DNA of 64,000 bases, taken from the NCBI RefSeq assembly GCF_000003815.2, contig NC_049981.1:4438437-4502436 (forward strand), written 5' to 3'. The notes under the pieces are model-generated. The model ran no database searches, was not told the DNA's origin, and was given only the letters and a program-made list of their open reading frames with translations. This document shows positions 2,135-57,290 of the stretch, in pieces (position 1 is the first letter of the stretch; the number at the start of each line of letters is the position of its first letter). The DNA comes from Branchiostoma floridae (lineage: Eukaryota; Chordata; Leptocardii; Amphioxiformes; Branchiostomatidae). The translations under genes and the position numbers were made by a program.

Positions 2135-3104
2135 CTTGCATCTTAATCATACCAAGAAGACTCCCCTTTGCAACAGTTTGGTTTTGCTCGTTGAGAATAT
2201 CGCGCAGAGACACGCTCTCCAGGTCGCGGTTCAAGTCGTTTACAGTGATGCTCAGCTGCGATATTTCCTTTACAGATACAAACAACAAAATAAAAACTTA
2301 GGTATGAAAAGACCAAAGAAAAAGAAAATTTAAAGTACGGCTAGCTGGACAGTGTTAAAGAGAACCCAGACTTCAAAGTAGTTTTTTTTATACATATGAC
2401 TGTAATTTTTTTTGGTCGGTCGCACCATGATGAAACTTCACATATTTATGTCTACTTTAAACGACTGATTTTCTGTCTACATGCTGGATCATGGGTTAGA
2501 GATACACATTTTGGTAAAAATAATTGCCGCCTCTTCAATTGATCTACGCACAGAGTGAAGCAATAAAATCCCCATTATTATGTTGTGATAGTTTTTGAGA
2601 TTTAGCAGTGCTTACCTTATTGTTGATGAAGAACATTATAAAGAATCCCATCGCGACAAGAACTACAACAGTAGCGGCAGTCATGCAGATACGGTGGGAG
2701 CGGATGAAGCTATAAAGAGCCTGGCGGACAGTTGTTGCTTCCGTATACATGTTGCCTGCAAACAAATCCATCATTAGGATTGAATTGACACAAAGACAGA
2801 ATTTTCAAGATATAAACGACAAGTACTTACAGCATCCAATTTGAAAAAGTAAGAAAAGAAAGCTACAAAGACATCGGCTACCTGCAGACGTGTGCGTTGC
2901 GCCACGATTCACTGCCTCGGCTTCTTCGTACGTGTCTGAGGTTTCTTGGTCTACCTCTCGCTTGCCTGTAGCACCTTTACCAAAGCGAGCACGCCCTCTT
3001 GAAGCGCTCAGGTGGACAGTCGGTGATTGAGGCGGCAGCCCGGTGGTTCGGCCACTGCCGGGCCCAGAGACGGGAGACCGGACCGGCTCCGCCTGCTCGT
3101 ACAT
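2135..3104 (-). pseudogene. H-type lectin receptor copy, exons 1-3 only
   Basis: Three exons of the membrane H-lectin family are readable on the minus strand: exon 1 at 2882-3104 (starts MYEQAEPV, contains TYEEAEAV), the transmembrane exon at 2616-2755, and the stalk exon at 2135-2267. They join in phases 1 and 0, with GT donors and AG acceptors, and none contains a stop. The coiled-coil and lectin exons expected within about 1 kb are absent between 2135 and the window edge. DNA resembling intron 3 ends near 1900, where unrelated repeats begin. It is therefore most likely a 3'-truncated copy. A very long third intron running past the left edge cannot be excluded. Confidence 0.75.
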
Positions 3105-3330
3105 GTTTACTGTACTGACAGACTGATACCGACGCCTGTATTAAAACAAGTATGAATATGTCCAATCTTGTGGAGCTCAATCTAAATAAGATGGGGTATG
3201 TTTGCCCTTTTATCAAAGAACGTCTTCTGTATAATGTGCTGCTGATGGAGTTTTGTTTTCAGCTGGTGGCAGACCAATTTTCAGGATGAAGGAGTTGATT
3301 AAAGAGTACTCTCATGTTTGAATGTAACCG
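3105..3330 (-). promoter_or_regulatory. Conserved H-lectin 5' flank module (minus copy)
   Basis: About 200 bp immediately upstream of the start codon match the flank of every other membrane-type copy. The conserved order reads, toward the ATG: a block around TTGATAAAAGGGCAAACATA, then AAGCTCnACAAGATTGGACA, then GCCAGTACAGTAAACATG. It probably contains the core promoter and 5' UTR. No TATA box was assigned with confidence. Its co-duplication with exon 1 is seen directly. Confidence 0.6.
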
Positions 3331-3401
3331 ATTTTATAACAAATAATAAAAAAATACATTTTCATCCACGCCTACTGATAAACTGCATGTGGCAGAAAAA
3401 T

Positions 3402-3458
3402 GAATGAATGAATGAATGAATGAATGAATGAATGAATGAATGAATGAATGAATGAATG
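3402..3458. repeat. (GAAT)n microsatellite
   Basis: About 14 near-perfect tetranucleotide units lie just upstream of the conserved 5' module of the 2.1-3.1 kb lectin copy. Similar tracts lie upstream of other lectin modules at 4209-4282 and 52449-52500. Confidence 0.95.
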
Positions 3459-3473
3459 CTGTGTAAGAAATGT

Positions 3474-4030: not shown

Positions 4031-4061
4031 GATCCCAACAAGGATATATACTTTGAATATC

Positions 4062-4657: not shown

Positions 4658-4775
4658 TGCAGACGTGTACGCTGCGTCACGTTTTACTCTTTGGCTTCTT
4701 CATACGAGTCTGTTTTTGGTCACATTCTCTTTGCCATACAAGATACGCCCTCTTGAATCACTCATGTGGATAATT
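4658..4775 (-). pseudogene. Degenerate H-lectin exon 1 fragment
   Basis: The minus strand carries a decayed version of the 3' half of lectin exon 1. Recognisable pieces are TTCAAGAGGGCGT, a GAAGAAGCC block, AAACGTGACGCA and ACACGTCTGCA followed by an altered donor. Substitutions and small gaps break the frame. No other exon of this copy is nearby. Confidence 0.6.
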
Positions 4776-5997: not shown

Positions 5998-6300
5998 AGT
6001 GCGAGTGCCTGGAGCGCTCAGGTGGACAGTAGGTGATTGAGGCGGCAGCCCGGTGGTTCGGCCACTGCGGGCCCAGAGACGGGAGACCGGACCGGTTCCG
6101 CTTGCTCGTACATCTTTACTGTACTGACAGACTGATACTGACCCATGTATTGAAATATACATGGATATTGTCAATCTTGTAGAGCTTAATCTGAATAAGA
6201 AGTAGTATGTTTGCCCTTTTATCAAAGAACGGCTTCTGTATGATGTGCTGATGACGGCATTTTGTTTTTCAGCTTGTGGCAGACCAATTTTCAAGATAAA
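5998..6300 (-). pseudogene. H-lectin exon 1 fragment with 5' flank, frameshifted
   Basis: The start codon is at 6113, followed by MYEQAEPV and SPVSG. One G is then missing in the run that encodes GPGSG in intact copies, which shifts the frame. The exon stops matching near 6020, where it fuses to a segment (TGCGAGTGCC, CTCAAACACGG) also found at 11920 and 12290. The conserved 5' flank continues to about 6300. No downstream exons belong to it. Confidence 0.75.
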
Positions 6301-7813: not shown

Positions 7814-8363
7814 TCATGCGCAGGCCATCCAGTGGATACTGGCACCGTACAACTTTGAATTACTCCAAGTGCCGATTCGCACAGTCAGACTTGTTGTGGA
7901 GACCGACACCACGTTGGCCCTAAAGCGGATGTTACTATTACCATCAACATCACTTTCGAAATGGTCCAGCACTGCCCAGCCCACAGTCACCACGGGGGTT
8001 GTCCGGAAGGCGCTGCTGAACGTGGCGGTCAGGTCGAGTTGGCGATCCCCGAACACAGACATGAAGGCGCCCGCTGGTGTTACCAATGTACCGTTTTCGC
8101 CTAATATGGAAAGTGTAAAATGATGTATTTAGCGTCGTGGTCAGGTCTCAGTAGTGACTGCCAGCGTCGCACATGAAAAGGCTAACGAGGCACCACGTTT
8201 ACGCAAACGAAAATGTAAATAGGTTGAACACGACTTTCACAACGGCACACGTTTTTTAGGCATAGCTACACAAAACAGCTAGCCCATGAGCAAATACACC
8301 ATCTAACACTTCTCTCTCCCTCTTTCTCTCTTAGTCTTTCTTACATCAAAGTCTTGCGCTCTA

Positions 8364-8409
<46 letters not shown>

Positions 8410-10135
8410 CCTCTCACTCTCTCTCTCTCTCCCTCTTACGTTCCAAACTTTTTTCTCTTTCTCACCTTTTTTCTCTCCGGTTCTAGATAAAAAATTGTTT
8501 ACCTCACAGACCGGTCATGCAACTTTAAATATACAATATAATTCCACTATTAAACATCGCAACTTACAGCGTTCGATGTAGTCTCGCTGTTCCATGTGCT
8601 GGATCCGCACGTCCTTGGTCGCCATCTCTGCCTGAAGCTGCTGAATCTCTGCCTGAAGCTGCTGCATCTCTGCCTGGTACTTCTGATCTTTGGCCGCCAT
8701 CTCATTTTGAAGCTGCTGCATTTCGGCTTCCATCTCTTGGTCTTTGGCAAGAAGTTGCTGCATTTTAGCCTGGGACATTTGCTCCTTGGCCCCAGTCTCC
8801 ACCTTAAGCTGTTGCATGTCGGCCTGCAGCTGCTCGAGCACACTTTGTAGGGACAGAGAAGCTGGGACGGAACAGAAGGAAGTAGAGTATTAGATAATGT
8901 ACGTGATGTGTGTTTGCATAATTTTGTTATATTATGTACCAAAGACGTTGGCCGTTCCAAAACTACAGTTTCCATATGTGGCATACTCGTAGTTTCGGAC
9001 AGCACCCAACTCCTCTGATATGCTGATGTGTTGTCTTTCTATTTGTTTAGTTTATACTAATTTCAGCGACATGTGGAGCCTGAAATAGGCTATATCAGAA
9101 TTACAACAAGTAAAATAAAGAGACAAATATATCTGTAGCTAATTTTACCTTACCTGGCATCTTTGTAGTCCCAAGAAGACTCTCCTTAGCGGTGGTTTGG
9201 TTTTGCTCGTTGTCAACATCGCGTTGATACATGTTCTCCAGATCACGTTTCAAGTCGTTCACAGTGACGGTCAGATGCGACATTTCCTTTACAAACACAA
9301 ACATCAAAATAAAAACTTCATTTCCTTTACAAACACAAACATCAAAATAAAAACTTTGATATGAAAAGAATCAAAGAAAAAAGGAAACGTTTTGTACGAC
9401 TAAGGAGACCCAGGCTTTATAGGAAATTAGTATTTTTAGGTTTTAGTTGAAGTAAGACTACTTAAAACACGTAATTTTCTGTCTACATGCAAAAAAGTAC
9501 TGCTTATTTAATGGGTCTATTACAGATGGAAACAATAAAATTCCATTATGATATCATGATAAAAAATCTTAACCTTTTGAGATTTAGCATTGTTCACCTT
9601 ATTATTGATGAAGAACATTATGAAAAGTCCAATCACGACAAGGACTGCAACAGTAGCGGCGGCCAAACAGATACGGCGGGAGCGGATGAAGCTACAAAGA
9701 GCTTGGCGGCCATTTGCTGCTCCCTTATGCATACCGTCTGCAAAAAAAACTGATAATTTATTAAGGTTACAATTATGATGAATTCAACTTAAAATCCATC
9801 ATCAACATAATGACACAAGACAGAATTTTCAAGATATATACAAAAACAGTACTTACAGCATCCTATTCGAAAAAAGAAAGAAAAGAAAGCTACAAATTAA
9901 GACATAGGCTACCTGCAGACGTGTCTGTTGCGTCACGTTTCACCGCCTCGGCTTCTTCGTACGTGTCCGAGGTTTCTTGGTCTTCTTCTCCCTTGTCTGC
10001 AGCGCCTTTGCCATAGCGAGCACGCCCTCTTGAAGCGCTCAGGTGGACAATCGGTGATTGAGGCGGCGGCCCGGTGGTTCGGCCACTGCCGGGCCCAGAG
10101 ACGGGAGACCGGACCGGCTCCGCTTGCTCATACAT
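7814..10135 (-). CDS. Membrane-anchored coiled-coil H-type lectin (358 aa)
   Basis: The exons on the minus strand are 9913-10135, 9598-9737, 9154-9286, 8568-8861 and 7814-8100, which give an open 358-codon protein. Residues 1-75 are a cytoplasmic tail with YEQAEPV at 2-8 and a later TYEEAEAV. Residues about 95-119 form the membrane helix after the basic CSFIRSRRIC; the basic N-side predicts type II topology. Residues 122-165 are a stalk, 166-263 a coiled coil rich in MQQLQAE repeats, and 265-358 an H-type lectin domain with FSSAFRTTPVVTVGW, VSTTSLTVRIGTW and a WMACA end. Family members bind sugars such as GalNAc; the ligand here is unknown. The start is the ATG shared by all copies. A minus-strand AATAAA lies near 7711. 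It is one of two complete copies. Confidence 0.88.
8331..8442. repeat. (CT)n low-complexity tract
   Basis: Long TCTC/CTTTCT tract in intron 4 of the lectin gene at 7814-10135. Similar tracts sit in the same intron of other copies (16140-16245, 34655-34680, 42060-42192), so it is ancestral to the family. Confidence 0.9.
9281..9356. repeat. 38 bp tandem duplication of a 3' splice site
   Basis: The 38 bp starting CATTTCCTTTACAAAC at 9281 repeat exactly from 9319. They include the polypyrimidine-AG acceptor and first bases of stalk exon 3 of the gene at 7814-10135. Use of the upstream acceptor would bring an early TGA in frame. Confidence 0.85.
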
Positions 10136-10340: not shown

Positions 10341-11409
10341 ATCTACGAGTATAAGTATGTATTAAAGCGAACCTTTTCAAAACAGATAATAAATAAATTC
10401 ATTTACGCCCACGCTTACGCCTACGCCCATTCATTTAAGAACCTTAGTTAACTTTCCGTCCTCGACAGGGCTAGGTACAGGTCGTTAATAATATGACGTA
10501 GCAAACGAAATTCGAAAATTCGAAAAAGGATCAAAACAACACACACAAAGTTACCTAAGATTTGATAATACTAGGGTATACATATTACCACGGTAATGGG
10601 TACTAGGCGCATGCGTACTTTTTCAATCCAGTCTGGAATTTCACTGTTTTCTCAGCAAGCAATGGGATCTGAAATTCGGCCTCTTCTAAACTACATTTGG
10701 ACGGACAAGAAAAGGGAAAGAAGTCAGACAGTATACAATAAGATTCAACCATTTATTTTGTATATTCAACTTTCTTCCCCAACCATATGTAATTGAAGTG
10801 CAGAGAGCGTAATTCATATCTGCGACAGGGGTTATAAACTATACATAGGGTATAAACTCTTCCGGCTTATCCAAAGCGAGTGCCGGTGTAACTTTCATAT
10901 CTCATGCACAGGCCATCCAGTGGACTTTAGCTTGGTACATCTCGGAATTATGCCAGGTGCCGATTTGCACCGTCAGAGCGGTTTTAGTGACGGAGGTCAC
11001 TCTAGCTGAGACGCGGATGTGACCAGGGTAGTGATCCACATTCGTCAAGCCCACGGTCACCACGGGAGTTGTCCGGAAGGCCCTGCTGAACGTGGCGGTC
11101 AGGTCGTGGTACCGGTTGCCATAGCCGGGTGGAAATAAAGAAGCTTTCTTTTTCTTTGGTGTTTCCAAGTTCCCACTTTCACCTAATACGAACATTTCAA
11201 ATGTGTCCGTTTGTACAACAGCACAACATATTAACCAAAATGCTTATTTGTTTTATAAGACTTGCATAACGACATACACCATGTTCAAATACAATTCAAT
11301 CTCTGCAACGGAGATTTATGGAGATTTACTTTCGGACGCTTCGAGTGATATCTATCACTCTTCTTCAGAGTCACTAGAAGGAACTGGCAGAAAAATTCAA
11401 TAGAAGTAC

Positions 11410-11515
11410 AGTCACCAAATCACCAAGTTTCGTGGTCCTAGCATCGTCGTTCGGCAGTTATACAACATCAAAATTGGCGTAGGCACTTTAAGCCCCCCAA
11501 TCTATATAGAGTTAA
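11410..11515. mobile_element. Fragment of TTAA element family 1
   Basis: Carries ACCAAGTTTCGTGGTCCTAG, CGTTCGGCAGTTATAC and GCCCCCCAA, ending near a TTAA at 11512. This is an inverted remnant of the element type seen whole at 16247-17205 and 5084-5878. Confidence 0.5.
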
Positions 11516-11835
11516 TCTTACACTCAATATTTTGCCGGGAAACATTTGAATCACTGACCGCTCATTCAACTTCATATATCAATACATTTAATAAATGTAA
11601 TTCGAAAAGAGAATCAAGCATCATCACTTACAGCGTTCGACGTAGTCTCGCTGTTCCATGTCTTCTACATGTGTCCTGTTGTCCTTGGCCGCCATCTCGG
11701 TTTGAAGTTGTTGGATCTCAGCCTGGAACATCTGTTCTTTGGCTGTCATCTCTGACTGAAGCTGTCGCATCTTAGCCTGGAACACCTGTTCTGTGGCTAT
11801 TATCTCTGCCTGAAGCTGCTGCACATCTGCCTCAT

Positions 11836-12390
11836 AGGAGTCCATCTACGAGTATCAAAGTTTTAAAGAGAACCTTTCAAAACAGACAAGAAAAAATATT
11901 ATTTACACGTGAAGGAATTCGAACACGGAGTGCGAGTGCCTGGGCCGCCTTAACTTAGTCGAGGTTTGGAAGAAACGTTTCTGGATAGCATTAAATCTTA
12001 AGCTTAAGCTCCGCTTACTCGTACATGTTTACTGTACTGGCAGACACATAGTCAACAGCCTGTATTGAAATAAGCATGGATATATTTCCTATCTTGTAAA
12101 GCTTAATCTGAATAAGAAGGAGTATATTCGTCCTTTTATCAAAACACTGGTTCTGTATGATGTGTTGCTAATGGCATTTTGTTTTTCGACTTGTTGCAGA
12201 CCAATTTTTAAGATGAAGGAGTCGATCTACGAGTATTAGTATGTATCAAAGCTTTTCAAAACAGATAATGAAAAATGCATTTACACGCGAAGGAACTCAA
12301 ACACGGAGTGCGAGTGCCTGGGCCGCCTTAACTCTGTCAAGGTTTGGACGAAACTTTTCCGGATAGCATTAAAACTTAAGCTTTTCAGAT
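11836..12390 (-). repeat. Duplicated lectin promoter modules with SINE-like joints
   Basis: Two copies of one segment (TCTACGAGTAT, CTTTTCAAAACAGA, ACACGGAGTGCGAGTGCCTGG, GGATAGCATTAAA) lie at 11840-12005 and 12220-12385. Between them is a lectin 5' flank ending in an exon 1 stub whose ATG at 12026 is followed by MYE-stop. The joint GTTCGAATTCC on the minus strand resembles a tRNA B box. The array occupies what should be the intron 2 to exon 4 region of the 10.9-12.9 kb copy. Confidence 0.7.
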
Positions 12391-13149
12391 TTGACAGTGC
12401 TCACCTTTTTATTGATGAAGAACATTATGAAGAGTCCCATCGCAACAAGGCTAAATACTACAACAGTAGCGGCCTCCATGCAGATACGGTGGGAACGGAT
12501 GAAGCTACAAAGAGTTTGACGCCCATTTGCTGCCCCCCTGTACTTGCGGTACAAAAATGATTAAAAATTAATTATTTGTTTAGGTTACGATGTTAAGTAG
12601 AAATCCATCATCAGCATAATATCACAATGACAGAATTTTAGAGATTTGAACAAAAATTATATACAACGACATACCTGCAAACGTGTACGTTGCGTCACGT
12701 TTCACCGCATCGGCTTCTTCGTACGTGTCCGAGGTTTCTTGGTCTTCTTCCTGCTTGTCTGTTGCGCCTTTACCATGGCGAGTACGCCCTCTTGAAGCGC
12801 TCAGGTGGACAGTAGGTGATTGAGGCGGCGGCCCGGTGGTTCGGCCACTGCCGGGCCCAGAGACGGGAGACCGGACCGGCTCCGCCTGCTTGTACATGTT
12901 TACTGTACTGACAGACTGATATCGACCCATGTATTGAAATAAGCATGAATATGTCCAATCTTGTGGAGCTTAATCTGAATAAGAAAGAGTATGTTTGCCC
13001 TTTTATCAAAGAACTGCTTCCGTATAATGTGCAGCTAATTACATTTTGTGTTTCGGCTAGTTGCAGACCAATTTTCGGGATAAAGAAGCTGATTTAAGAG
13101 TACTCGTATGTATCAAAGTAAATCTTTTCAAGACAGATACTAAAAGTTT

Positions 13150-15783: not shown

Positions 15784-18700
15784 TCATGCACAGGCCATCC
15801 AGTAGACGTTGGCAGCGTAAAGCCGTGAGTCGACCCAGGTGCCGATCCGAACCGTCAGGCTTGTTGTAGAGACGGACTGCACAGTAGCCGAGACGCGGAT
15901 CTCAGTTGCAAAGTGGTCCACGTGCCTCAAGCCCACAGTCACCACGGGGGTTGTACGGAAGGCCCTGCTGAACGTGGCGGTAAGGTCGACGTGGCGATCG
16001 CCGTTCCCTGAAGTGAACGCGTGACTCGGTGTTCCCAAGTCACCGCTTTCACCTAATGTGAAAAGCCAAATATAGTGTAGGCAAACCTGATCAAATTACG
16101 CAAGCAACGGAAAACGCTTGTCTATGAGATGAAAGTCCCCCCCTCTCTTTCACTCTCTCGTTCATCCTCACTCCTTCGCGATCTCAACATTTCTCTTCCA
16201 CTCAATCGTCGTCTTTTACTTTTTCCCCTCTCTCTCTGTCACTCTCTTAACCCTATTCAGACCGGGCTTTTTTGGTCATCCCTGGACCGGGGGGGGGGGG
16301 GCTTTTGAGGCCCTCCACTTCTAAGTCCTCTAACTCTTGAACGACGTGCCGTAGGGCTACCAAATTTTCAGGACATGATATCGACATAATACCTGACGAA
16401 TATTTGACGTTTGACGTTACGTTGACGTAAGATGACGTAATTATGACGTCATCAATTTGATTATATTGGCCGGACCCATGAAAAAGGGGTATTCTCAGAA
16501 AACTTCAAGTTATACTACAAAAATGTAACAACAAGTGCAGATAACAAAATAATAATGTTTATTACGACTTGCGTTGCCAATAGCAACATCGATGACGTCA
16601 TAATGACGTCATAAAATGACGTCATGCACATCTAACTTACGAGTTAGGATCCGCCATATTATATGCACCACCTTGAATTTTTAAAACTACTTTTTTTGCA
16701 ACAAATAATCACAAAGGGCAATGGAAATAGACTAAATTCATTCATTTAGATGGTTTTTGATGAAAAAATACCAGGTAGTTAGAAATTTTAAGGGATAATT
16801 AGCTTGTTATTCTTGGTCTGGCCATACGGTCCACCATCTTGGATTTTGGGCTGATGACGTCATCAAATTAGCATAATTTATGCGTATATAATTATGAAAG
16901 ATATGCTAAATAATATCTGATTTTATTTTTGTAACAATATAGCAGTAATATAGCAAATAAATGTGAAAAATACATTGTTAGAACAAAAAATAGTGATTTT
17001 TGGCAAAACTGCCTGTCAACAAACGGTTGCCATGGCAACACGAAAAAATGGAATATTTGTCAAACTTCGTAAAATTGTTGCCAACAATATTTTAGGAAAA
17101 CCCATTAAATTTGGGTGCTTTAAGGAAAGGGGTTTTGGGGTTTTAGACCATAAAGTTATGGGGGGGCTTAAAAAGCCCCCCCCCCCCCCGGTCTGATAGG
17201 GTTAAGGTGGTATCTCACTGCACTTGGGGTACTGGTGCGGCAATAACGGGGCTCGGCGATAATTCGACGAATTTCAGAGATAAAGAATGATTTTTTTTAC
17301 GTTTTGTGTATTTTGTTGTCTTTTAAGTAATATGCAATATGTAAATTATAAAAAAATGGTGAAAATAACACAACAGTGCCGCAGTTAACAAACCCCGCAG
17401 TGCCACATTGTTGCCCCGAGTGCAGTGAGATACCACCTTAACTTTATCTTTTTGTCTAGCTCTCTCTCAGTCCCTTTTACTGTCTCTCTTCATCTCTCGC
17501 TCTCTCTCCCTCTCTCTATTTCTCTCTCTCTCCCTCTCACATAAACACTCTCACAAATACACACACACACAACTTTTTTGCCCCATCGCTCTACATGGCA
17601 ACTATTTCTAAATACTATATTTCTAAATATTGTACTACTTAGTACTTACAGCGTTCAACGTAGTCTCGCTGTTCCAGGTCCTGTATCCTCTGGTCTTTAG
17701 CCGCCATCTCGGTCTGAAGCTGTTGTATGTTGGCCAGAGTCAGTTGGTCTTTGGCTTCCATTTCAGCCTGCAGTTGTGCGAGCACACTTTGCAGAGACAG
17801 GAAATCTGGAACGGAACAAAACGGGACGTAAAAATGCAGTTATATATTACCTCAATAGGCTTGGATGCACATACAGTGTCGATGAAGTTTAGACATCCAG
17901 ATAAAACGATAAGGCAAACAGCAGTTACGTACCAAGCAACTGGATATGATTTTGGAAGTTATGATTTTCCACGACCATATACATGTATATTGAATTATCA
18001 TATAGCCAGGCGCCGCGGACCAATCAGAAGGCCCCGTTCCACGTTGGTTATGACGCCATAACACTTAGATTCCGGGCAGGCCGTTGTGTATCCTCCTTCT
18101 GATTGGTCAGAATGAATCGACACCGGCACCGGTGTCGATTTGCGTCGACACCCGCACCAGTGTCGATGCAAATCGACACCGGTGCTGGTGTCGATTCATT
18201 CTGACCAACCAGACTGAGCGGTACACACAAGATATGCAGGGTTTGGCCAATCAAAAGGAGCGAAAGTAAAAAAGTACAGACTGCAAGGAGGGAATATCTC
18301 CTTCTGTTAACATTGATAATGAGTTTTGTTGTTCTAAAAAGACGAAAGACGTGCAATGTTTTGAATATTTTCTGTGGAAATTTTGGTTTCAAAATGCAAT
18401 CTGTAAACAAATGTATGTACCAANNNNNNNNNNNNNNNNNNNNNNNNNNNNNNNNNNNNNNNNNNNNNNNNNNNNNNNNNNNNNNNNNNNNNNNNNNNNN
18501 NNNNNNNNNNNNNNNNNNNNNNNNNNNNNNNNNNNNNNNNNNNNNNNNNNNNNNNNNNNNNNNNNNNNNNNNNNNNNNNNNNNNNNNNNNNNNNNNNNNN
18601 NNNNNNNNNNNNNNNNNNNNNNNNNNNNNNNNNNNNNNNNNNNNNNNNNNNNNNNNNNNNNNNNNNNNNNNNNNNNNNNNNNNNNNNNNNNNNNNNNNNN

Positions 18701-24324: not shown

Positions 24325-25115
24325 ATGTACGAGCAGGCGGAGCCGGTCCGGTCTCCCGTCTCTGGGCCCGGCCGTGGCCGAACCACCGGGCCGCCGCCTC
24401 AATCGCCTATTGTCCACCTGGGCGCTTCAAGAGGGCGTGCTCGCTATGGCAAAGGCGCTACAGACAAACAAGAACAAGACCAAAAAGTCTCAGACACGTA
24501 CGAAGAAGCCAAGGCGGCGAAACGCCATGCAACGAATACGCGTACGCCTGCAGGTAGCTGACTGACGGCCTTCTTTTTATATTTTACCCGGTATTTTCCA
24601 AATACTTGATATTGCAAATACTGGTCTCGCTGTTTTCATGTGTCTTTAATCATTATGCCATTGATGTTGATGATAAATTCCAAGGAAACCTTATGTATTT
24701 CATGAAAACTTGAAACATAAGCAAAACAAACTGTTCCTACAGACCGAACGTATGAGGGAGCAACAAGTCGTCGCCAAGCTCTTTGTAGCTTCATTCGTTC
24801 CAGGGCCCACCGTATCTGTATTGCCGCCGCTACTGTCGAAATCCTTGTCACGATGGGACTCTTCATAATGTTCTTCATCAACAATAAGGTAAACAATGTT
24901 AAATCTCAAAAGCTTAGCTTTTTTTCTAATTCTGTGGTTAACATTTACCAATAAACGGTCCTTTCTTTATATATATATACATACGAACTTATTCTGATTA
25001 TTGTATTTGTATAGGAATTATAGCAACTGACCGCCACTATTAACGACTTGAAACGTCATCTGGAGAACATGTCTAAACTCGATGTTGACAACGAGCAAAA
25101 CCAAACTGCTGAAAA
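24325..25115 (+). pseudogene. Truncated H-type lectin receptor copy
   Basis: Exon 1 is at 24325-24553 (MYEQAEPV, open), the transmembrane exon at 24743-24888, and the stalk exon starts at 25015. The third codon of the stalk exon is TAG (25021-25023). The stalk then breaks off near 25115, where a fragment of a TTAA element takes over. No coiled-coil or lectin exon follows; the next coding DNA is the thioesterase. The transmembrane segment also carries an unusual Glu (TVEILVTMG), and the tail motif has drifted to TYEEAKAA. Loss of function is therefore clear. Confidence 0.85.
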
Positions 25116-38190: not shown

Positions 38191-38205
38191 ATACAGTATG
38201 AGAAA

Positions 38206-38476
38206 AAAGTTTTTTTCATGTTCACATTTCAAAACGTTTACTTTGATATATTTGAGTATTCTTGGATTAAGAAGTCCTTCATTCTGAAAATTGGTCTGCC
38301 CCCTGCAAAAACAAAACAAAAACTAAACGACATTCGCGACACATCATGCCGTGTCAGTTCTTTTAAAAGGGCAAACATACTCCTTCTGCATAAGACTAAG
38401 CTCTACAAGATTAGCCATGCCCATGTTCATTTTACAATTCCAGGTTGTAGATCATTTGTCTGCCAGTACAGTAAAC
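38206..38476 (+). promoter_or_regulatory. Conserved H-lectin 5' flank of the 38.5 kb copy
   Basis: Contains AAAATTGGTCTGCC, AAAAGGGCAAACATACTCCT, AAGCTCTACAAGATT and CCAGTACAGTAAACATG in the same order as the other copies. Confidence 0.6.
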
Positions 38477-38941
38477 ATGTACGAGCAGGCGGAGTCGGTC
38501 CGGTCTCCCGTCTCTGGGCGCGGCAGTGGCCGAACCACCGGGCCGCCGCCTCAATCACCTACTGTCCACCTGAGCGCTTCAAGAGGGCGTGCTCTCTATG
38601 GCAAAGCCGCTACAGACAAGCGAGAAGAAGACCAAGAAACCTCGGACACGTACGAAGAAGCCGAGGCGGTGCAACGTGACGCAACGTACGCAGGTAGCCG
38701 ATATCTGTGTAGCTTTATTTTTTTCAAATAGGATGCATATGCTGCAAATAGTGTTTGCATTCTTGTTTCGACAATTCTGTCGTTATGTCATTTTGCTGCT
38801 GACGGATTTCACCTTAACTGTATTGTAATTCTAACAAGTTAATTCTTTTCTGCAGACCGCATGTATAAGGGAGCAGTGAGTGTCCGCCAAGCTCTTTGTA
38901 GCTTCATCCGTTCCCACCGTATCTGCATTGCCGCCGCTGTT

Positions 38942-39935
38942 CACGATGGTAAAATTTGGCCCAAAAATTTCCAGACTTCCATGTGGGGATTTAGAACACG
39001 AATCATGTTCCATCGAACAGAACGCTGGCGTGATCGAAGAGAACGGGCGTTCTATTTGGGGTCATCCGAGGTCACCCGCAGGTTGTTACAGTAAACACGC
39101 AGAAAACACCCTCATTTTCCCGGGTGCCGTGCGTCAGAAGAAAAACAAACATTTTCACAAATATAAACTGTTATTTGGCAAGCTGACTTTTGCTGCCGCT
39201 TAGTTTGAAACATGTGACATGTAAGAAAGCTGCTGGCGTCATTATTGGTGACCTTGAATGTTACAACACTTGTTTACGGCGGTATCAATTACTGTATGTC
39301 ACTATATATCAGTGCGACTCGACATAGGACCAAACATGGTATTAAAATTGCTTACAAAACGCGTACAAATCAACTCTATCAGGACTTATATTGTCGACAA
39401 CTAATATCTCCAGCTTTGTGTCTTAGGGATTTTTGGAACATGGAGGCAATTTTGAATTACGAGTCTTTGAGTATGAAAACTTGAAAAAAATACGATTTTT
39501 CGACCTTATATTGGCTGTAAAAATAGTTTTAAGTAGAAGTTGAAAAATCCCTAAGACACAAAGTTTGATCTTAATATCATTACCTATATGAAATGAAAGA
39601 TTGGGATTTTCAGTCAGATTTAGGACCAATCTAAATATGGTATTTGTTTTTTGGCCAACCGAACACCCTTTCTAAATCAACCAACTATGCACATTTCAGA
39701 AGACATTGTGACAAAACTGTGTAGCACACGTACACGGTAAGACTTGACGTGTACACACCGCCAGTTTTCATTTGATATCGACGTGGCACGTGCGAGAGGT
39801 TGCTTTTCAAACTATTACGATATTTTAGAAGATGTTTCAGTCACCGTCAGCCCTCCGCGGGGACCGCGCGGGAGCCCCGGTAACCCGATACTTTGCGTTC
39901 GAATGGAAACTTTTCGGCCAAATTTGACCATCGTC
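38942..39935. mobile_element. TIR DNA element inside a lectin transmembrane exon, copy 2
   Basis: Starts CACGATGGTAAAATTTGGCC, ends GGCCAAATTTGACCATCGTC. It is the inverted counterpart of 14483-15490. The host reads GCCGCCGCTGTT before it and GTTGTGGTAGTCC after it. The intact 54.6 kb exon reads GCCGCCGCTGTTGTGGTAG, so GTT is a probable 3 bp target duplication. Confidence 0.85.
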
Positions 39936-40669
39936 GTTGTGGTAGTCCTTGTCACTATAGGACTCTTCATAATGTTGTTCATCAACAATAAGGTAAGAAC
40001 TGCTACGTTTTTATCACAATGTCATAATGGGGATTTTTATTGTTTCAATCTGGGCGTAGGCCAATTAAAGAATCAACATTTAGAACTTATAGACAAAAAA
40101 ATCACGCGTTTAAAGTAGAGATAAATTCGTGTGTTTATAAATTCGTAAGTTCATCGTGGTGCGACCTTAAAAACAAAACTTACATTCATATGTATAAGAT
40201 AATGCTTTTCTATAAGTCTGGGTCTTTTCAGCCGTACAAAACGTGTCCTTTTTTTCTTTCGTCCTTTCATATCTAAGTTTTTATTTTGATGTTTGTATAA
40301 AGGAAATATCGCATCTTACCACCACTGTTAACAACTTGAAACGTCATCTGGAGAACATGTCCCAACGCGATGTTGACAACGAGCAGAATCAGACTGCTGT
40401 AATGGAGAGTACTCTTGAAATGAGTAACATACCAGGTATTAGCTACAGTTATCTTTTTTTTCTCTTTATTTTAGTTTTTGTACTGAGTCTTCTGAATCAG
40501 GCTTGAAGTGTAGTCCGAATTAGTGTTAACTAGCGAAATAGACAGACGACACATTTGTAGACTAGATAATTTCGGTGACGCCCAAAATTATGCCACATAA
40601 TAGTTTGGTGAGCTATCCGTCTATTTGATCACTATCTAGTACTTCTAGCTACACTTAGAGCCAGTTAGA

Positions 40670-40696
40670 AATAAATAAATAAATAAATAAATAAAT
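40670..40696. repeat. (AAAT)n microsatellite
   Basis: Pure AAAT units in intron 3 of the broken lectin copy. Confidence 0.95.
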
Positions 40697-40997
40697 AGAG
40701 GGTACTACTAAATATGGATTGTTCTTCAGGTTAGTAGAATATAGGATATTTACGTCATCATATTAACAGACTCAAGTATAATTGTTGGTACAGAAATATG
40801 ATTATGAAGAACATTAATGTAATTTTCTGACGAGATTGTAATTAGTATTTGGCGTGTTTTTTTCTATTCTTTCAGCATTATGAATTATATCATTTGACAG
40901 CATGTACATGTATGAGCCACTCGTAAACTTAAATGATGGCAACTTTACATGTTAATGCTGTCATATACCTCTTAGCTACTCCATCTAAATTCATTTG

Positions 40998-41318
40998 TTT
41001 GTATGTATGTATGTAATGTATGTCTTTACCTATGTAGGTTTTTATGTATGTATGTATGTATTTCATGTATGTGTGTATGCTTGTTTCGATATTTGTATGT
41101 TTATATGTATACATGTATATAATGTAATGTATGTGTGTATGTTTGTATGTACGTATGCATGTATGCAATGTAGGCATGCATGTATGTACATGTATGTATG
41201 TTTGTATGTATGTATGTTTATATTTATTTATGTATGTATGCATGCATGTAATGTGTGCATGTGTTTTTGTAGGAATGTGTATTTGTATGTATGTATGTAT
41301 GTATGTACGTACGTATTA
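40998..41318. repeat. (TATG)n degenerate microsatellite
   Basis: About 320 bp of TGTATGTATG with scattered variants, in intron 3. It accounts for the Tyr-Met-Cys-Val frames seen here. Confidence 0.95.
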
Positions 41319-42059
41319 ATGTAAAAGACCCTACGAAAGTCGCTTTGCTGTCAATAAAAATCACGACATTAACGAAAAACAGTCGTTTAGGCTTAAAAAC
41401 AACCTGTCGCTCTCTTTATAAAACGCCGTGCTTCTGATAATGATTATACAAACGACATTATCTAACACTATACTTTCGGCTGTTTGATCTTTTCAGCTTC
41501 TTTGCTTCCACAAAGTGTGCTCGATCTAATGCAGACCGAGATGCAGCAGCTTTAACCAGAGATGGGGGCCAGGGAACAAACGTCCCAGGCTAAAATGCAG
41601 CAACTTCAGGCAGACAACCAAGCGATGAAAGCGGAAATGCAACAACTTCAAAATGAGATGGTGGCCAAAGACCAGAGGATCCAAGACCTGGAACAACGAG
41701 ACTACATCGAACGCTGTAAGCGGCGATGATTGTTTCACCGTTCAAGTTACATTGTATTGTATTGTAAACAGGCGTCACTTTAATTTTGGAAAAACACTCC
41801 AAAATGCTTTAGCTGATCAAATTTTTATTATTCTTATTGGGTACATACAAAAGTGTAATGAATATGCGGAAAGCACCAATGGGTCCCTTGGGACTAGTCC
41901 AATTATACTATGATTATATATAATTTTGTGGTATCATACATAATTATACATAACACATTTTACCATTATACATAATTATATATAACCCGTAAAGTTGAGT
42001 GAGCGGTCTGTAAGTGAGACATTTCCCACCAAGAGTATAGGAGATACATATAGTCGAGA

Positions 42060-42192
42060 AGGGAAACAAGATGGGTAAGAGAGGGTGAGAGGGATAGAAA
42101 GAGAGGGGGGAGAGAGAGAAAAACATAGACAATATAAGGAAGAGCACCCAGGAGAGAAGGATTTAGAGTGAGAGAGAGAGAGAGAGAGAGAA
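42060..42192. repeat. (GA)n tract
   Basis: Purine-rich GAGAGA sequence in the last intron, complement of the CT tracts found in the minus-strand family members. Confidence 0.85.
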
Positions 42193-42474
42193 TGGTTTAT
42201 TTGTTTCACAGCCAACTTGCGGCTCGAAAGCCGATTTATCAGGCTTATTTACATTGTGTACCGCTACCTTATTGCTACTCATAAGAAAATTGTAACATAA
42301 ACAATACAAATAAGACGCGTAGCATGAATATCATAATGGAGAAATATTGTAGATACGAGTTCAATGGCTAAAAGGCACATTGAAATAGGGTTAAAACTAT
42401 ACATATTAAAAGTCTGATCATGCTAAAACTTATTGACTTGTCCTACAGCATTAGCTATTAAAGATGACGTATCT

Positions 42475-43106
42475 ATAGTGAAAAGTTTAAACTTTGTTCC
42501 AACACAAGGGAAGAAACTCACCATAAATTTTCGGCCGAACACTCCGACCTTCATCAGATGAATGATTCGCTGCTAATCCGGAAGTCGTCGGATGACGTCA
42601 GGTAGCAGCGAATCATAAATGGCGGGAAGGCGAAACCTGCCACCGTCACGGTTCAATGAGGGTTGATGTGCCCTGATGTAGATAGCCTCCTTGACGCCCC
42701 TCACGAACCAGTCCTGTTCGGAATCCAAGATGCGAACTTGGTCCAGAGATACGGAGTGGCCCGGAAATTCGACGTGTATATGCTGAGACACTTCTGAAGA
42801 TGTTGAACTGCGACGTTTATGTTCCATGAAACGGGTTCTTAATGATCGTGCCGTTTCCCCGATGTAGGACTCGGTGCACGGACCTCTGAGGTTCTGTCCC
42901 GTACAACGAATATGGTAAACCACGCCGCACTGTGACGGTGGCAGGTTTCGCCTTCCCGCCATTTATGATTCGCTGCTACCTGACGTCATCCGACGACTTC
43001 CGGATTAGCAGCGAATCATTCATCTGATGAAGGTCGGAGTGTTCGGCCGAAAATTTATGGTGAGTGTCTTCCCTTGTGTTGGAACAAAGTTTAAACTTTT
43101 CACTAT
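42475..43106 (-). mobile_element. Penelope-like element fragment, GIY-YIG domain between 175 bp inverted arms
   Basis: The minus frame 42573-42962 encodes a GIY-YIG endonuclease-type segment: CGVVYHIRC, then SYIGETARSLRTRFMEHKR, SQHIHVEFPGHS, then a conserved KEAIYIRAHQPSLNRDGG and a LLPDV tail. This is the C-terminal domain of Penelope-like retroelements. The RT part is missing. The left arm (42475-42649) and right arm (42932-43106) are near-perfect inverted repeats; the first codons of the frame come from the right arm. Each arm carries CTGATGA followed by a short stem and GAAA, resembling a hammerhead core. It lies in the last intron of the 38.5 kb lectin copy. Confidence 0.85.
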
Positions 43107-43604
43107 GGAATTTACCAACACAGATGAGCTTTCATTCGGATATAAGATGACGTATTTAGATGATGTATTTCGTCATAGACTAGTCTTTCCCATTGTGAAC
43201 CTATCATCGCAATATTGTATCGCTGTGAAACATAACACATTTAAAATGTTCGCTTTGGTGAAAGTTGTGTAATTCTGATCATTACACTCAACATGTACTT
43301 TTAAACTTTCCAAATTAGGTCAAAGCGGTGTCTTTGAAACACCATTTGATGCCTTCACGTCCAAATCCAGGGATCGCCACATCGAACTGAAAACCACGTT
43401 CAGCAGGGCGTTCCGGACAACCCCCGTGGTGACTGTGGGCTTGGCAACGCTGGATCATTTGAATGATGGTGATGTTAACATCCGCGTCGCATCTAGCGTG
43501 GTCTACGTCTCCACAACAAGTCTGACGGTGCGAATCGGCACCTGGAATTATTCAAAGTTGTACAGTGCCAAAGTCTACTGGATGGCTTGTGCTTGAGAGA
43601 GATA

Positions 43605-48375: not shown

Positions 48376-50746
48376 ATGTACGAGCAGGCGGAGCCGGTCC
48401 GGTCTCCCGTCTCTGGGCCCGGCAGTGGCCGAACCACCGGGCCGCCGCCTCAATCACCTACTGTCCACCTGAGCGCTTCAAAAGGGCGTGCTCGCTATGG
48501 GAAAGGTGCTGCAGACAAGCGAGAAGAAGACCAAGAAACCTCGGACACGTACGAAGAAGCCGAGGCGGTGAAACGTGACACAACTTACACGTCTGCAGGT
48601 AAGCAATATTGTTGTAGCCGTATTTTCTTTTTTTTAAGTAGGATTCTGTAAATACTGTTTATATCTCGAAAATTCTGTTTTTGTCTTATTATGTTGATGA
48701 TGGATTTTAAGTTGAATTCATCCTAATTGTAACTTTATCAAATTATAATTTTTTTGCTGCAGGCCGTATGTATATGGGAGCAAGTGTCCACCAAGCGCTT
48801 TGTAGCTTCATCCGTTCCCACCGTATCTGCTTGGCCGCCGTTACTGTAACAGTTGTAGTCTTTAGCCTTGTTGCGATGGGACTCTTCATAATGTTCTTCA
48901 TCAATAATAAGGTGAACAATCTAAATCTCAAAAGTTTATTATCATGATATCGTAATCTGTACTAGACCCGTTAAATAAGCAGCACTTTTTGTTACCGAAA
49001 TGTGTATATGTCTAACATACAACCCAGCATGTAGACAGAAAATTTCGTGTTTTGAGAGGTCTTACTTTAACTAAAACCGTAAGAAGTTTCATTGTGGTGT
49101 GACCGATCTAACAAAAGTTACATTCATATGTATAATATACTACTTTCCTATAAGCCCTGGTCTTCTTGATTATTCGTACAAAACGTTTCATTTTGTTCTT
49201 TGGTTTCATTCATATCTAAGTTTCTATTTTTATGTTTGTGTTTGTAAAGGAAAAATCGGAGCTGACCGTCACTGTTAACAACTTGAAACTTGATCTGGAG
49301 AACATGTCTCAACGCGATGTTGACAACGAGCAAAACCAAACTGCTGCAACGGAGAGTTTTCTTGGGACGAGTAAGATGCCAGGTAGGGTACAATGAGCTT
49401 CATATATAGTTTTCTCTCTTCATTTTACTTTTTTGTAATTATGCCACATATAGAAACTATAGTTTGGTGCGTTATCTTTTTATTTGACCTCTTTCTACTA
49501 CTTCCAGCGACACGTTTAGCCTGTTAGTGACTTTTTTCTGAATAGTGGTTCTGTGAGACCTGTGTTGGTCCTTTTCCTAAAAATACATTTATCAGGTTGG
49601 TAGAATATGGGATATTTACGTCACTATGTTAACAGGTAGATTTGTTGATACAGAGATATGATAAATGGATTTTTTTGCGAGATTGTTATCATCATAGCAT
49701 TTTTTCTTGTTTTAGAACTATGATTTCTATTATTTAAGTACATGTATATCGTCAACTACAATATATGTTAACTCAGCATGCTGATGCTGCCATATACCTA
49801 TTAGCTACTCCATTTGTATCTACATGTTTGTATGCTTGTATTTATTGATCGAAAAGACCATACGAAAGTCTTTGTGCTTTCTTTTTACGTCAATTAGGAC
49901 TACAGTGGAATTCACTCTGCATCAAAAATAAATTGCGTCTTGGCTCAAACAACCACTAAGTCGCTCTCATTATGAAATGGATGATCTAATAAAGTTATGC
50001 AAACACACATTTTCTACATTATCTGACACTGTCCTTTCATCTGCTCGGTCCCAGCTTCTCTGTCCGTACAAAGTCTCCTCGAGCAGCTTCAGTCCGACAT
50101 GCAACAGCTTCAGGTGGAGACTAAAGCCAAAGAACAGAGGTTCCAGGCTGAAATACAACAACTTCAGGCCGAGACGGGGACCAAGGAGCACATGTTCCAG
50201 TCTGAAATACAACAACTTCACACCGAGATGGCAGCAAAGGATCAAATGATCCATGACTTGCAACAGAGAAGCTACGTCGAACGCTGTAAGCGGTTATTGT
50301 ATTGTATTGTATTGTATTGTATTGTATTGTATTGTTTTGTATTGTTTTGCAAGTTACATTGTATTGTATTGTATTGTATTGGTATTTTTAAAACAATTTT
50401 GGAGAGGGGGTTCTGGCCACTACGTTAAATACAGCATTTTACACTTTCCATATTAGGCGAAAGCGGTTTTTCTGAAACACCACGTGACGCCTTTACGTCA
50501 GGACATGGCGATCGCCACCGCGACCTGACCACTACGTTCAGCAGGGCCTTTCGGACAACACCCGTGGTGACTGTGGGCTTGACGACATTGGACCATTTGG
50601 ATGACGAAAATAAAGATGGCGATGGTAACATCCGGGTCACAGCAGGCGTGTTATCTGTCTCCACAACAAGCCTGAAGGTGCGAATCGGCACATGGAATAG
50701 TTCACAGCTGTTCCGTGCCACAGCCCACTGGATGGCTTGTGCATGA
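48376..50746 (+). CDS. Membrane-anchored coiled-coil H-type lectin (341 aa)
   Basis: The exons are 48376-48598, 48763-48911, 49250-49382, 50055-50285 and 50457-50746 (1026 bases, phases 1-0-1-1, all GT-AG, no internal stop). Residues 1-75 are a Pro/Gly-rich cytoplasmic tail with YEQAEPV at 2-8 and TYEEAEAV about 60 residues on. Residues 88-97 (CSFIRSHRIC) are basic, and 97-121 form the membrane helix. Residues 125-168 are the stalk, 169-245 the coiled coil (EIQQLQAE and EIQQLHTE repeats), and 246 a Cys encoded across the last intron. Residues 247-341 are the H-type lectin domain (FSRAFRTTPVVTVGL, STTSLKVRIGTW, WMACA). Predicted type II surface lectin, probably oligomeric. It is the clearest intact plus-strand copy and a good reference for the family. 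Confidence 0.9.
50298..50382. repeat. (ATTGT)n pentanucleotide repeat
   Basis: Tandem ATTGT units in two blocks in the last intron of the 48.4 kb lectin. A shorter ATTGTATTGT stretch is at the same place (about 41753) in the 38.5 kb copy. Confidence 0.9.
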
Positions 50747-52539: not shown

Positions 52540-52860
52540 TTTGAAGAGGATGGCTTTGATACTAGTACTCGTAAATCAACTCCTTCATCATGAAAATTGG
52601 TCTGCAACCAGCCAAAAAAGAAAACGTAATTAACAGCACATCAAACAAAACCAGTTCTTTGATAAAAGGGCAAACATACTCATTCTTATTCAGACTAAGC
52701 TCTACAATATTGGACATATTCATGCCTATTTCAAAACAGGTTGTAGATTATTTGTCTGTCAGTACAGTAAACATGTACGAGCAGGCGGAGCCGGTCCGGT
52801 CTCCCGTCTCTGGGCCTGGCAGTGGCCGAACCACCGGGCCGCCGCCTACATCACCTGGAC
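52540..52860 (+). pseudogene. Orphan H-lectin 5' flank with truncated exon 1
   Basis: The full upstream module leads to the ATG at 52773 and an open MYEQAEPV start through GRTTGPPP. The match ends abruptly near 52855 and a stop follows. No other exon of this copy lies before the next complete promoter at about 54000. Confidence 0.8.
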
Positions 52861-53990: not shown

Positions 53991-53999
53991 GTTTTGAAA

Positions 54000-54231
54000 A
54001 GGTTTACTTTGATACATACTAGTATTCGTAGATCAACTCCTTCATCCTAAAAGTCGGTCTGCAACCAGCCGAAAAACAAAATGCCATTAGCAGCACATCA
54101 TACTAAAGCAGTTCTTTGATAAAATGTCAAACATACTCCTTCTTTCTTAGATTAAAGTCGACAAGATTGTACATATTCATGCTTATCTTAAAACATATGT
54201 TGTAAAGTATTTGTCTGCCAGTACAGTAAAC
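54000..54231 (+). promoter_or_regulatory. Conserved H-lectin 5' flank of the 54.2 kb gene
   Basis: Contains TCGTAGATCAACTCCTTCAT, GTCTGCAACCAGCCGAAAAA, a diverged TTGATAAAATGTCAAACATA and GCCAGTACAGTAAACATG. Confidence 0.65.
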
Positions 54232-57200
54232 ATGTACGAGCAGGCGGAGCCGGTCCGGTCTCCCGTCTCTGGGCCCGGCAGTGGTCGAACCACCGGGCCG
54301 CCGCCTCAATCACCGACTGTCCACCTGAGCGCTTCAAGAGGGCGTGCTCGCTATGGAAAAGGTGCTACAGACAAGGGGGAAGAAGACCAAGAAACCTCAA
54401 GCACGTACGAAGAAGCCGAGGAGGTGAAACGTGACACAACTTACACGTCTGCAGGTAGCCGAAGTCTTTGTAGTTTTATATTATTTTCTTTTTTAAACAG
54501 GATGCTGCAAACACTGTTTTCGTTCATATCTCAAAAACTCTGACATTATGCTGATGATGGATTTCAAGTTAACATTATAACCTAAACAAATTAATCATTT
54601 TTTTTTAATATTTCTTTTTTCAGACCACATGTGTAAGGGAGGAGCAACCGGCTGCCAAGCATTCTGTAGCTTCATCCGTTTCCACCGTATCTGCATGGCC
54701 GCCGCTGTTGTGGTAGTCCTTATCGCAATGGGACTCTTTATAATGTTCTTCATTAATAATAAGGTGAGCACTGCTAAATCTCAACAACTTCATTTTTTAA
54801 TGCTCTACAGAAAATATTTTACCCTTTGGTTTGCTGTTTCTAAACATTTCCTTTCACTGTTGTCTTTTTATATCTTAGTTTTAATTTTTATTTTGCTGTT
54901 TGTATTATAGGAAATATCTCAGCTGACCGTCACTATTAATGACTTGAAACTTGATCTGGAGAACTTGTCTCAACGCGATATTTACAACGAGCGAAACCAA
55001 ACTGCTGCAATGGATGGGATGAGCAAGAAACCAGGTAAGATAAAATGAGCACACTATTATCATTTTTCTGTTCATTTTACTTTATACTTATGAAATATTA
55101 GAAACTAGCAAAAACGGCCCCCATCTATGCTACATATTGAAAAGTAATGTAGCTCAGTGCCGGCTAACTTCTTTGGTGTGTCACCTGTATATTTTGCCAC
55201 TTGTCAATAATTCCATCTACACCTTAAGATGCTACCCCTGAACGAGGACTGTCGACTGTCTTCTTGAATCTTAAATGGTCCATATCTGAAAATAATTTCA
55301 TCAGTTTTGTAGAATATGGGATATAGAAGAATTTTTTTACACAACTAGTATGTAATTACTTTGCTTACTTTTCAATGTCTCCCAGACACCTTCTCAGAGC
55401 TTCAATTTGGAGTTATGCTTTTTGCCGTTATATGTGAGCAATGTATCAGGGGGGGGGGGCGGTCAAACTATGCCACTTTTGAGATTGTGCCTCCGTATCC
55501 GTCAGTATTCGAGGAAACTTGGATCCGAGACTTATACGACGCCGGAATCGGTCGGATTTGAGGTGTATCGTCTTATTCAAGCAATGACCATGAATTCCTA
55601 GGGATTCGCGTGAAAATGTTTCTTGTACGATTTCGAATTCGTTGAAATTTTCAGGATTCAATGACAGTGTTCTTTATATACACTGTACAGGTTTTTTTTT
55701 TGGGGGGGGGGGACTCAGTGACTTTTGATTTCTTTAGGTATTAGGGGAATTCTCCGATTTAGCCAATAAAATCAATTACTGACGTCATAATTACGTCAAA
55801 TTACGTCGTAACGATATCAAAATCTCAGATATCATTAAACTTAATGAGCACATCACTCCCTGCAAATCTGGTGATCGTACAGCCGTTTTGAAATTACGAT
55901 GGGGGGGGGGGGAGAAAATGAAAATTTACTTGCTGTGCACGTGGCTATAGTTTATGTTAAATAAACGACACTTTTTTTGTTTTGCTATAGTACTCCTTTC
56001 CATGGAGGATGTGATCGAACAGCTTCTCCAACAGCAGGCTATGATTCAGCAGCTGCAGATCGAGATGGCGGCCAAAGACCAGAAGACCAAGGTTCTAGAG
56101 CAGAACGCCCAAGCTTTCCGTCAGGAAATCAAAGCTCTCCAACAGCGATCAATCTACCGCTGTGAGTAATGATATAAATGTATGTCTTGATTTGAAATAA
56201 GTGTGAAGCCAGTTCTATACTATACCTGTAGAATGTTAAATGCCAATGCCTTATAGTTCAATGCTGTCCGCTATATAGTTACTAAAGGTAGCAGTAAGTT
56301 TCGTTTGCCAACAGTATTTAAGTTGCTTTAGATAAAACATGAAAAAGTGATTAATGATGCGTAGACTGAATGGCGATTTCCCACTCACTATATGTTGGCC
56401 TACTCTCATACGCCCCAAAGTACAGTGAGCATTTAATACAACTGTCAAAATACCTCTCCCCTGTTCTGGTATACTGTAGTGTATAGAACTCTCGACATCA
56501 GCTGAGAATTAGTTTATGTCGCATTCTTTTCTTAACCCTATTCAGACCGGGCTTTCTTTTCGTAAATCCTAACTCTTGTAGCACTTTAACGAAATATCAT
56601 ATGATCACCAAATTTTAAGAGAATGATGTAGACACAAATTCTAGGAAATTTGACACCATTATGACATAATATGACGTCATTACTTTGATTGTATTGGCTG
56701 GAACCATGAAAAAGGGCATTCCCAGAAAACTTGAAACTATGCTACAAAACGTAACCGCGAGTGCATCTGACAGAGATATATTGTTTCTTACGACTTCTGT
56801 TGCCGTCGTCAAAATGACGTCAAAAACGACGTTATGCATATCCAAGATACGAGTTTGGCTCCGCCATTTTATATCCACAAACTTGAGCTACATTCTTTGC
56901 AACAAATAATCACAAATGACAATAGAAATAGACTTTAAATGTTTATTTAAACAAAACGGTTGCCATGGCAAAGGAAAATTTTTCAAACTATTTCGAATTT
57001 TTGCTCGCTAAATTTTAGAAAAACACTAAATTTGGTGGTACATGGTTGTAGCGTCCAAAGTGGCTGAAGTTAATATTTTTTTTTGGACTGTTCCTAGAAC
57101 TTTTAACTTAAAATGCATTTTATGGTCAGTATGTANNNNNNNNNNNNNNNNNNNNNNNNNNNNNNNNNNNNNNNNNNNNNNNNNNNNNNNNNNNNNNNNN

Positions 57201-57290
57201 NNNNNNNNNNNNNNNNNNNNNNNNNNNNNNNNNNNATGGGCTAATACAAGGCTGTACAGTGCCGGCGTCTACTGGATGGCCTGTGCTTAA
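54232..57290 (+). CDS. Membrane-anchored H-type lectin, lectin exon mostly in gap
   Basis: The exons are 54232-54454, 54624-54763, 54911-55034 and 55991-56161, with a last exon of which only 57236-57290 is visible (ending ANTRLYSAGVYWMACA). The first four are open and in phase. The tail has YEQAEPV and STYEEAEEV. The membrane helix follows CSFIRFHRIC. The stalk is three codons shorter than in relatives. The coiled coil is the most divergent (MEDVIEQLLQQQAMIQQLQ, ending RSIYRC). The 100 N gap (57136-57235, probably of unknown real size) hides most of the lectin domain. The intron between the coiled-coil and lectin exons contains a partial TTAA element. Probably functional, but not verifiable here. 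Confidence 0.8.
55690..55912. mobile_element. Fragment of TTAA-type element interior
   Basis: TGACGTCATAATTACGTCAA, ATCTGGTGATCGTACAGCCG and TTTTGAAATTACGA match the interior and right side of the 5084-5878 element; G-runs flank it. It lies in intron 3 of the 54.2 kb lectin. Confidence 0.5.
56532..57060. mobile_element. TTAA element family 1, right end missing
   Basis: Starts TTAACCCTATTCAGACCGG. It follows the family interior (CCAAATTTTAAGAGAATGAT, TTGTATTGGCTGGAACCATG, GTTGCCATGGCAA) and stops matching near 57060, before the gap. Confidence 0.75.
57136..57235. other. Assembly gap (100 N)
   Basis: Exactly 100 N, the usual placeholder for a gap of unknown length. It removes most of the terminal exon of the 54.2 kb lectin. 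Confidence 1.

Follow-up and report, generated by a model that had tools for sequence, protein, structure and literature searches.

H-type lectins are best known as soluble proteins, among them Helix pomatia agglutinin (HPA), Helix aspersa agglutinin, discoidin I and II, and SLL-2. Lectins borne on type II membrane receptors are familiar from the vertebrate C-type lectin receptors (CLEC and natural killer (NK) complex), which combine an N-terminal tyrosine-bearing tail, one transmembrane (TM) helix, a stalk and a C-terminal lectin, and which lie in tandem clusters. Here we describe a tandem array in a 64,000-nucleotide stretch of the Branchiostoma floridae genome (C3:4438437-4502436, C3 being contig NC_049981.1; this whole stretch is called the window below) which shares these features and differs from the vertebrate receptors in having an H-type lectin as its head. 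Compared with the snail and discoidin lectins, the lectin domain belongs to the same Pfam family and fold, whereas in the array it is preceded by a tail, a TM helix, a stalk and a coiled coil. We consider it probable that the array encodes single-pass type II cell-surface glycan receptors built on a chassis (the tail and TM exons) that is shared with other genes.

The preliminary description of this DNA pointed to familiar H-type lectins (discoidin I, snail agglutinins) as soluble, which does not hold for every H-type lectin. Toxoplasma MIC15 (TGME49_247195, a rhoptry discharge factor) is described in two reports as anchored in the membrane and bearing an H-type lectin domain on the outside (PMC9218915, PMC9670195). 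It is a single parasite protein of ∼2909 amino acids which combines a leader peptide with cysteine-rich repeats and TSP1 domains and ends in a TM segment and cytoplasmic tail, and this different domain order sets it apart from the small tail-TM-coiled coil-lectin build of the array. Among the titles and abstract openings of the open-licence literature we found no description of a membrane H-type lectin from amphioxus. C-type lectin domains are over-represented among dispensable lancelet genes (PMC12373286), and at the four places in that article where the word lectin was located, H-type lectins are not named.

The stop-to-stop open reading frames (ORFs) of the window group into recurring peptides. 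Array parts were located by tblastn with five exon peptides (tail, TM, stalk, coiled coil, lectin) as queries, and the same assembly (513.4 Mb, 431 contigs) was used for the genome-wide searches. In the window this yielded nine multi-exon loci (A to I) and three lone tail relics, twelve in all; the seven or more loci and five relics counted earlier also add up to twelve. Loci A to E are on the minus strand and loci F to I on the plus strand, and the array, whose existence is confirmed, runs past both window ends (C3:4.43-4.78 Mb). Its members in window coordinates are as follows.

2135..3104, minus strand: gene A, exons 1 to 3 (tail 2882-3104, TM 2616-2755, stalk 2135-2267), from tblastn (tail match 2880-3110) and a splice model
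4658..4771, minus strand: lone tail-exon relic, from tblastn
6013..6138, minus strand: lone tail-exon relic, from tblastn
7814..10135, minus strand: gene B, five exons (tail 9913-10135, TM 9598-9737, stalk 9154-9286, coiled coil 8568-8861, lectin 7814-8100)
10902..12897, minus strand: gene C, four exons (tail 12675-12897, TM 12405-12529, coiled coil 11632-11845, lectin 10902-11182)
15784..17805, minus strand: locus D, coiled coil (17650-17805) and lectin (15784-16052), each open
24325..25110, plus strand: locus F, relic with tail, TM and stalk, from tblastn
34280..35086, minus strand: locus E, coiled coil (34814-35086) and lectin (34280-34548), each open
38477..43596, plus strand: locus G, all parts, broken (stalk 40303-40435, coiled coil 41497-41715, lectin 43319-43596)
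48376..50746, plus strand: gene H, five exons (tail 48376-48598, TM 48763-48911, stalk 49250-49382, coiled coil 50055-50285, lectin 50457-50746)
52767..52856, plus strand: lone partial tail exon (first 30 query residues), from tblastn
54232..57290, plus strand: locus I (tail, TM and stalk in frame; coiled coil ∼55996-56139)

Genes A, B and H are the only ones that can be read as intact with no special assumption. When spliced on paper at GT-AG sites they gave stop-free products of 376, 358 and 341 amino acids, respectively, the coiled-coil and lectin exons of gene A lying to the left of the window (L010:5606-5971 and L010:4863-5131). The intron phases in all three were 1 (tail-TM), 0 (TM-stalk), 1 (stalk-coiled coil) and 1 (coiled coil-lectin), so that the fixed phases proposed earlier are borne out where exon borders could be read.

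The identity of the head had been proposed from the letters alone, and a search against PF09458 had been suggested as a check. All six complete lectin ORFs of the window matched Pfam H_lectin (PF09458) with E-values from 6.1e-13 to 5.6e-16 and bit scores of 49-59 (curated cut-off 24), which excludes chance; the gapped lectin copy of locus I had no match to this family. The six-stranded beta-sandwich fold of the discoidin/HPA type was likewise recovered, with solved H-type lectins as matches. None of the seven window lectin ORFs matched the C-type lectin domain PF00059, and by sequence the chassis appears to be all that these genes have in common with genes for C-type lectin domains (CTLDs). 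For the sugar site, we took the HPA contacts to N-acetylgalactosamine (GalNAc) to be G24, D26, N61, R63, W83 and H84. The equivalents of the Arg and Trp are unchanged in 16/16 lectin copies, whereas Gly is kept in 13, Asp in 5, Asn at the N61 equivalent in 6 and His in 5, the positions aligned to D26, N61 and H84 thus varying relative to HPA. Because these equivalents vary, an HPA-like GalNAc specificity is disfavoured and GalNAc binding should not be assumed; judged from sequence, the variation does not count against membership of the H-type family. At nine contact-loop positions picked by the analyst, variability was 1.55 bits compared with a mean of 0.99 bits. Diversifying selection on the whole lectin was also considered and was unsupported (dN/dS, the ratio of nonsynonymous to synonymous divergence, ∼0.5).

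Gene H has a single hydropathy peak at residues 101-121, with a mean of 2.67 compared with 0.78 for the next best segment of the protein, flanked by ALCSFIRSHRICLAA on the N-terminal side and NNKEK on the C-terminal side. By the positive-inside rule, these flanks place the N-terminus in the cytosol. There is no N-terminal hydrophobic signal, the one internal TM segment has a positive N-flank and the lectin is C-terminal, from which we infer a type II topology. The build proposed earlier, with one TM helix followed by a heptad-like segment, was thus recovered. Each of the modelled proteins (A, B, C and H) has a Cys adjoining the lectin (C246 in gene H), which could link chains. Discoidin II forms trimers and HPA hexamers (PMC5712786), which would fit a trimeric stalk and suggests, by analogy, that the array products are trimers as well.

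In such receptors, the N-terminal tail would lie in the cytosol, one helix would cross the membrane, the stalk and coiled coil would bundle chains, probably into trimers, and the C-terminal H-type lectin would bind glycan at the cell surface, with signalling or uptake through two Tyr motifs of the tail. These motifs are invariably present: 16/16 aligned tails (8 from the cluster, 8 from outside) have Tyr as their second residue and retain a YEEA motif, and all of them read MY(E/K)QA.. and YEEA.., for example MYEQAEPV and YEEAEAV. The string MYEQAEPV retrieved no paper from the open-licence literature, and the single tail ORF compared on its own with Pfam matched no family. We considered whether the tail exon might be dual coding, since that of locus F looked open in all three frames; this was rejected because the other two frames have stops in 15/16 tails. 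If the array does encode such proteins, a lectin family best known for soluble agglutinins would have become a family of membrane receptors in a chordate.

The main new result, from sequence comparison, is that tail and TM are not private to H-type lectins. With the tail as query, 276 candidates arose genome-wide, of which 150 were scored as matches: 18 lie in C3:4.24-4.77 Mb and at least 132 elsewhere, spread over 18 contigs, C3 included. The TM search gave 143 matches. We opened eight of the outside loci. Pfam identified a C-type lectin in L029 (with collagen also present), L030, L031 and L034, and Pfam together with a gene model identified a pentaxin head with a collagen-like segment in L035. 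These five loci have the same tail exon as the array, with homologous TM and phase-matched stalk exons, and their TM exons stand apart: a tree built from 16 TM exons separated the eight from the H-type cluster from the remainder at 99/99. The spliced models of L034 (374 amino acids) and L035 (400 amino acids, with one GC donor) are open and share the phases 1,0,1 with the H-type genes, and the array itself belongs to this chassis family by its homologous tail and TM exons and phases 1 and 0. The earlier view of a receptor form special to H-type lectins must therefore be given up, as the same tail and TM exons precede C-type lectin and pentaxin heads across the genome. In L033 (C9:25262301-25269300) the chassis and a long coiled coil are followed by exons with weak Ldl_recept_b (LDL-receptor class B) repeats, phase compatible by eye and with one of two exons above the cut-off, so that a YWTD-headed receptor is a candidate for a further head type. 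No head was identified in the opened loci L032 and L036.

We then counted pairings of chassis and head, using the 132 tails and the 127 TMs that lie outside C3:4.24-4.77 Mb, 150 CTLD matches of 1565 candidates and 46 pentaxin matches of 129; all such pairings are lower bounds. For the best 150 of 1565 CTLD exons, a listed tail or TM in the same orientation lay at most 3 kb upstream in 60 and downstream in 12, with 0 antisense; at 6 kb the numbers were 65, 24 and 1, respectively. At least 2 of the 46 pentaxin matches had a listed chassis within 6 kb upstream. Conversely, the 6 kb downstream of the 132 outside tails contained a listed CTLD in at least 34 cases and a listed pentaxin in at least 2; 96 tails had neither among the listed matches. 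Since phase-1-bounded tail and TM exons with a phase-matched stalk precede C-type lectin or pentaxin heads elsewhere, exon shuffling most likely joined the H-type head to a widespread chassis, and amplification followed. More tentatively, and with slightly less than even confidence, we propose a mix-and-match system in which C-type lectin, H-type lectin, pentaxin and perhaps YWTD heads have been grafted onto one genome-wide cassette of tail, anchor and stalk with phase-1 junctions, with exchange still active (as on C217, below) and a tail kept alike across chromosomes for one signalling route. If so, one signalling chassis would have recruited unrelated sugar-binding heads by exon shuffling, in parallel to the vertebrate NK-type lectin receptors, and a single partner of the conserved tail would be expected to serve all heads.

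The tail exon is homogeneous across loci. Its DNA showed a median identity of 86% among seven outside loci on seven contigs and 81% in a group of three cluster and seven outside copies. Among the seven outside tails, identity fell to 50% and then 36% in the intron bases that follow, so that this intron could not be aligned. Within the cluster, tail synonymous divergence (dS 0.11) is a quarter of that of the lectin (0.46), and 9 of 31 fourfold sites with a conserved residue are invariant across 16 tails. Exon-wide conversion or silent-site constraint could explain this homogeneity.

On C217, the TM exon upstream of an H-type lectin groups with the non-cluster TMs of the CTLD lineage. At this locus (L037, C217:283501-287100) the CTLD-lineage TM exon (1237-1386, plus strand) is followed by an H-type stalk, coiled coil and lectin (1902-3422, plus strand), and an inverted remnant of an H-type TM and tail (1409-1717, minus strand) lies between the TM exon and the stalk. 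The 3.6 kb examined contained no tail in the orientation of this gene, which may therefore be a pseudogene.

An immune role, with recognition of microbes by the lectin heads, is plausible. The same receptors might instead serve cell adhesion, gamete recognition or allorecognition, which we regard as unlikely: discoidin I is known as an adhesion lectin, and tandem duplication, decay and head swapping are typical also of reproductive and self-recognition loci, whereas the C-type lectin and pentaxin heads found on the same chassis are common in pattern recognition and give a weak hint of immunity.

Several observations weigh against glycan receptors encoded by the array. The coiled-coil register is weak in a simple heptad test: of seven registers tried, the best has 48% hydrophobic residues at a/d. 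The consensus of the immunoreceptor tyrosine-based activation (ITAM), inhibitory (ITIM) and switch (ITSM) motifs and of the hemi-ITAM (hemITAM) needs a bulky aliphatic residue at Tyr+3, which is Ala in the tail motifs, and these fit none of the consensus sequences known to us, be it ITAM, ITIM, ITSM, hemITAM or YxxPhi; the hemITAM and ITIM of the vertebrate receptors differ from them accordingly. None of the 16 lectin copies keeps every presumed HPA contact, and lectin pN/pS (the corresponding ratio of nonsynonymous to synonymous differences) is below 1 overall, without a surplus of amino-acid change. Finally, of 34 H-type lectin matches genome-wide (from 47 scored candidates), 21 are in C3:4.43-4.78 Mb, and 7 of these have no upstream tail or TM among the listed matches; the same is true of all 11 matches on C12, C17, C19 and at C3:3.25 Mb, and most other H-type lectins of the genome may thus be soluble. 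For the remaining 14 cluster lectins, a listed tail or TM in the same orientation lies no more than 12 kb upstream with no other lectin between, as it does for the lectins at C3:4.24 Mb and on C217. This count drew on the matches that share a contig with a lectin hit and could lie near it, which are 21 of 150 for the tail and 21 of 143 for the TM. With only 14/21 in the cluster and 0/11 elsewhere, part of the array has decayed.

These counts bear on a second alternative, namely that the array yields soluble agglutinins like those of snails and slime moulds, transcribed chiefly from the coiled-coil or lectin exons, with tail and TM as hitchhikers or alternative first exons. It would agree with the solubility of the solved H-type lectins matched here, with the 11/11 lectins outside C3:4.2-4.8 Mb and C217 that lack a chassis among the listed matches, and with loci D and E, in which tblastn across the window found no tail or TM (at D, an N gap upstream at ∼18.3-19.3 kb could conceal the front). 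We nevertheless judge it improbable: in A, B and H all five parts, from tail to lectin, are joined in frame through canonical splice sites, dN/dS is below 1 in both tail (∼0.5) and TM (∼0.34), and no signal peptide exon was noticed, no systematic search for one having been made.

The picture of an expanding and decaying cluster in the preliminary description agrees with what we observed among the copies. The lectin exons of gene C and of L003, L004, L005 and L007 (four copies 300 kb away) differ at 0-5 of 282 bases, as expected either of recent duplication or of assembly copies. Gene C has no detectable stalk exon (tblastn with the exon peptides, window) and lacks the exon-2 acceptor AG present at the same place in the near-copy L003; it is in frame (280 amino acids) only if this acceptor is shifted to an AG further in. 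Stop codons interrupt the stalk of locus F, for which tblastn found no lectin in the window, and the coiled coil of locus G has a stop. In locus I the TM acceptor was assigned by pattern alone, and the lectin exon falls largely in an N gap, its end being matched at 57237-57287. The TM exon of locus G is interrupted by a ∼1-kb repeat (38948-39934, plus strand), a second copy of which, 85% identical, lies at 14484-15487 on the minus strand.

Among eight diverged lectins, the median dS was 0.46 with a dN/dS of 0.47, and because of this the copies appear to have been kept under constraint for long; dS was only 0.11 among 11 cluster tails and 0.35 among 10 TMs. That the cluster is mostly a graveyard, left by a recent duplication burst inflated by assembly copies and with few working genes, seems improbable, for although G, F, D, E and the three tail relics are incomplete and the lectin exons of C and its near-copies are as alike as an assembly duplicate could make them, A, B and H are open in every exon and the diverged lectins bear this mark of long constraint.

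Two further elements lie within the array. A fibrinogen-related gene at window positions 21143-22350 (minus strand) matched Fibrinogen_C in two overlapping ORFs (E 1.7e-27 and 7.6e-25), and its frame is broken in the assembly. A fibrinogen head on the window chassis was considered and rejected, as no tail or TM match lies on the same strand near this gene (21.1-22.3 kb). Between loci E and G, two ORFs at 37105-38322 (minus strand) gave weak reverse-transcriptase matches below the Pfam cut-off and are likely a retroelement remnant.

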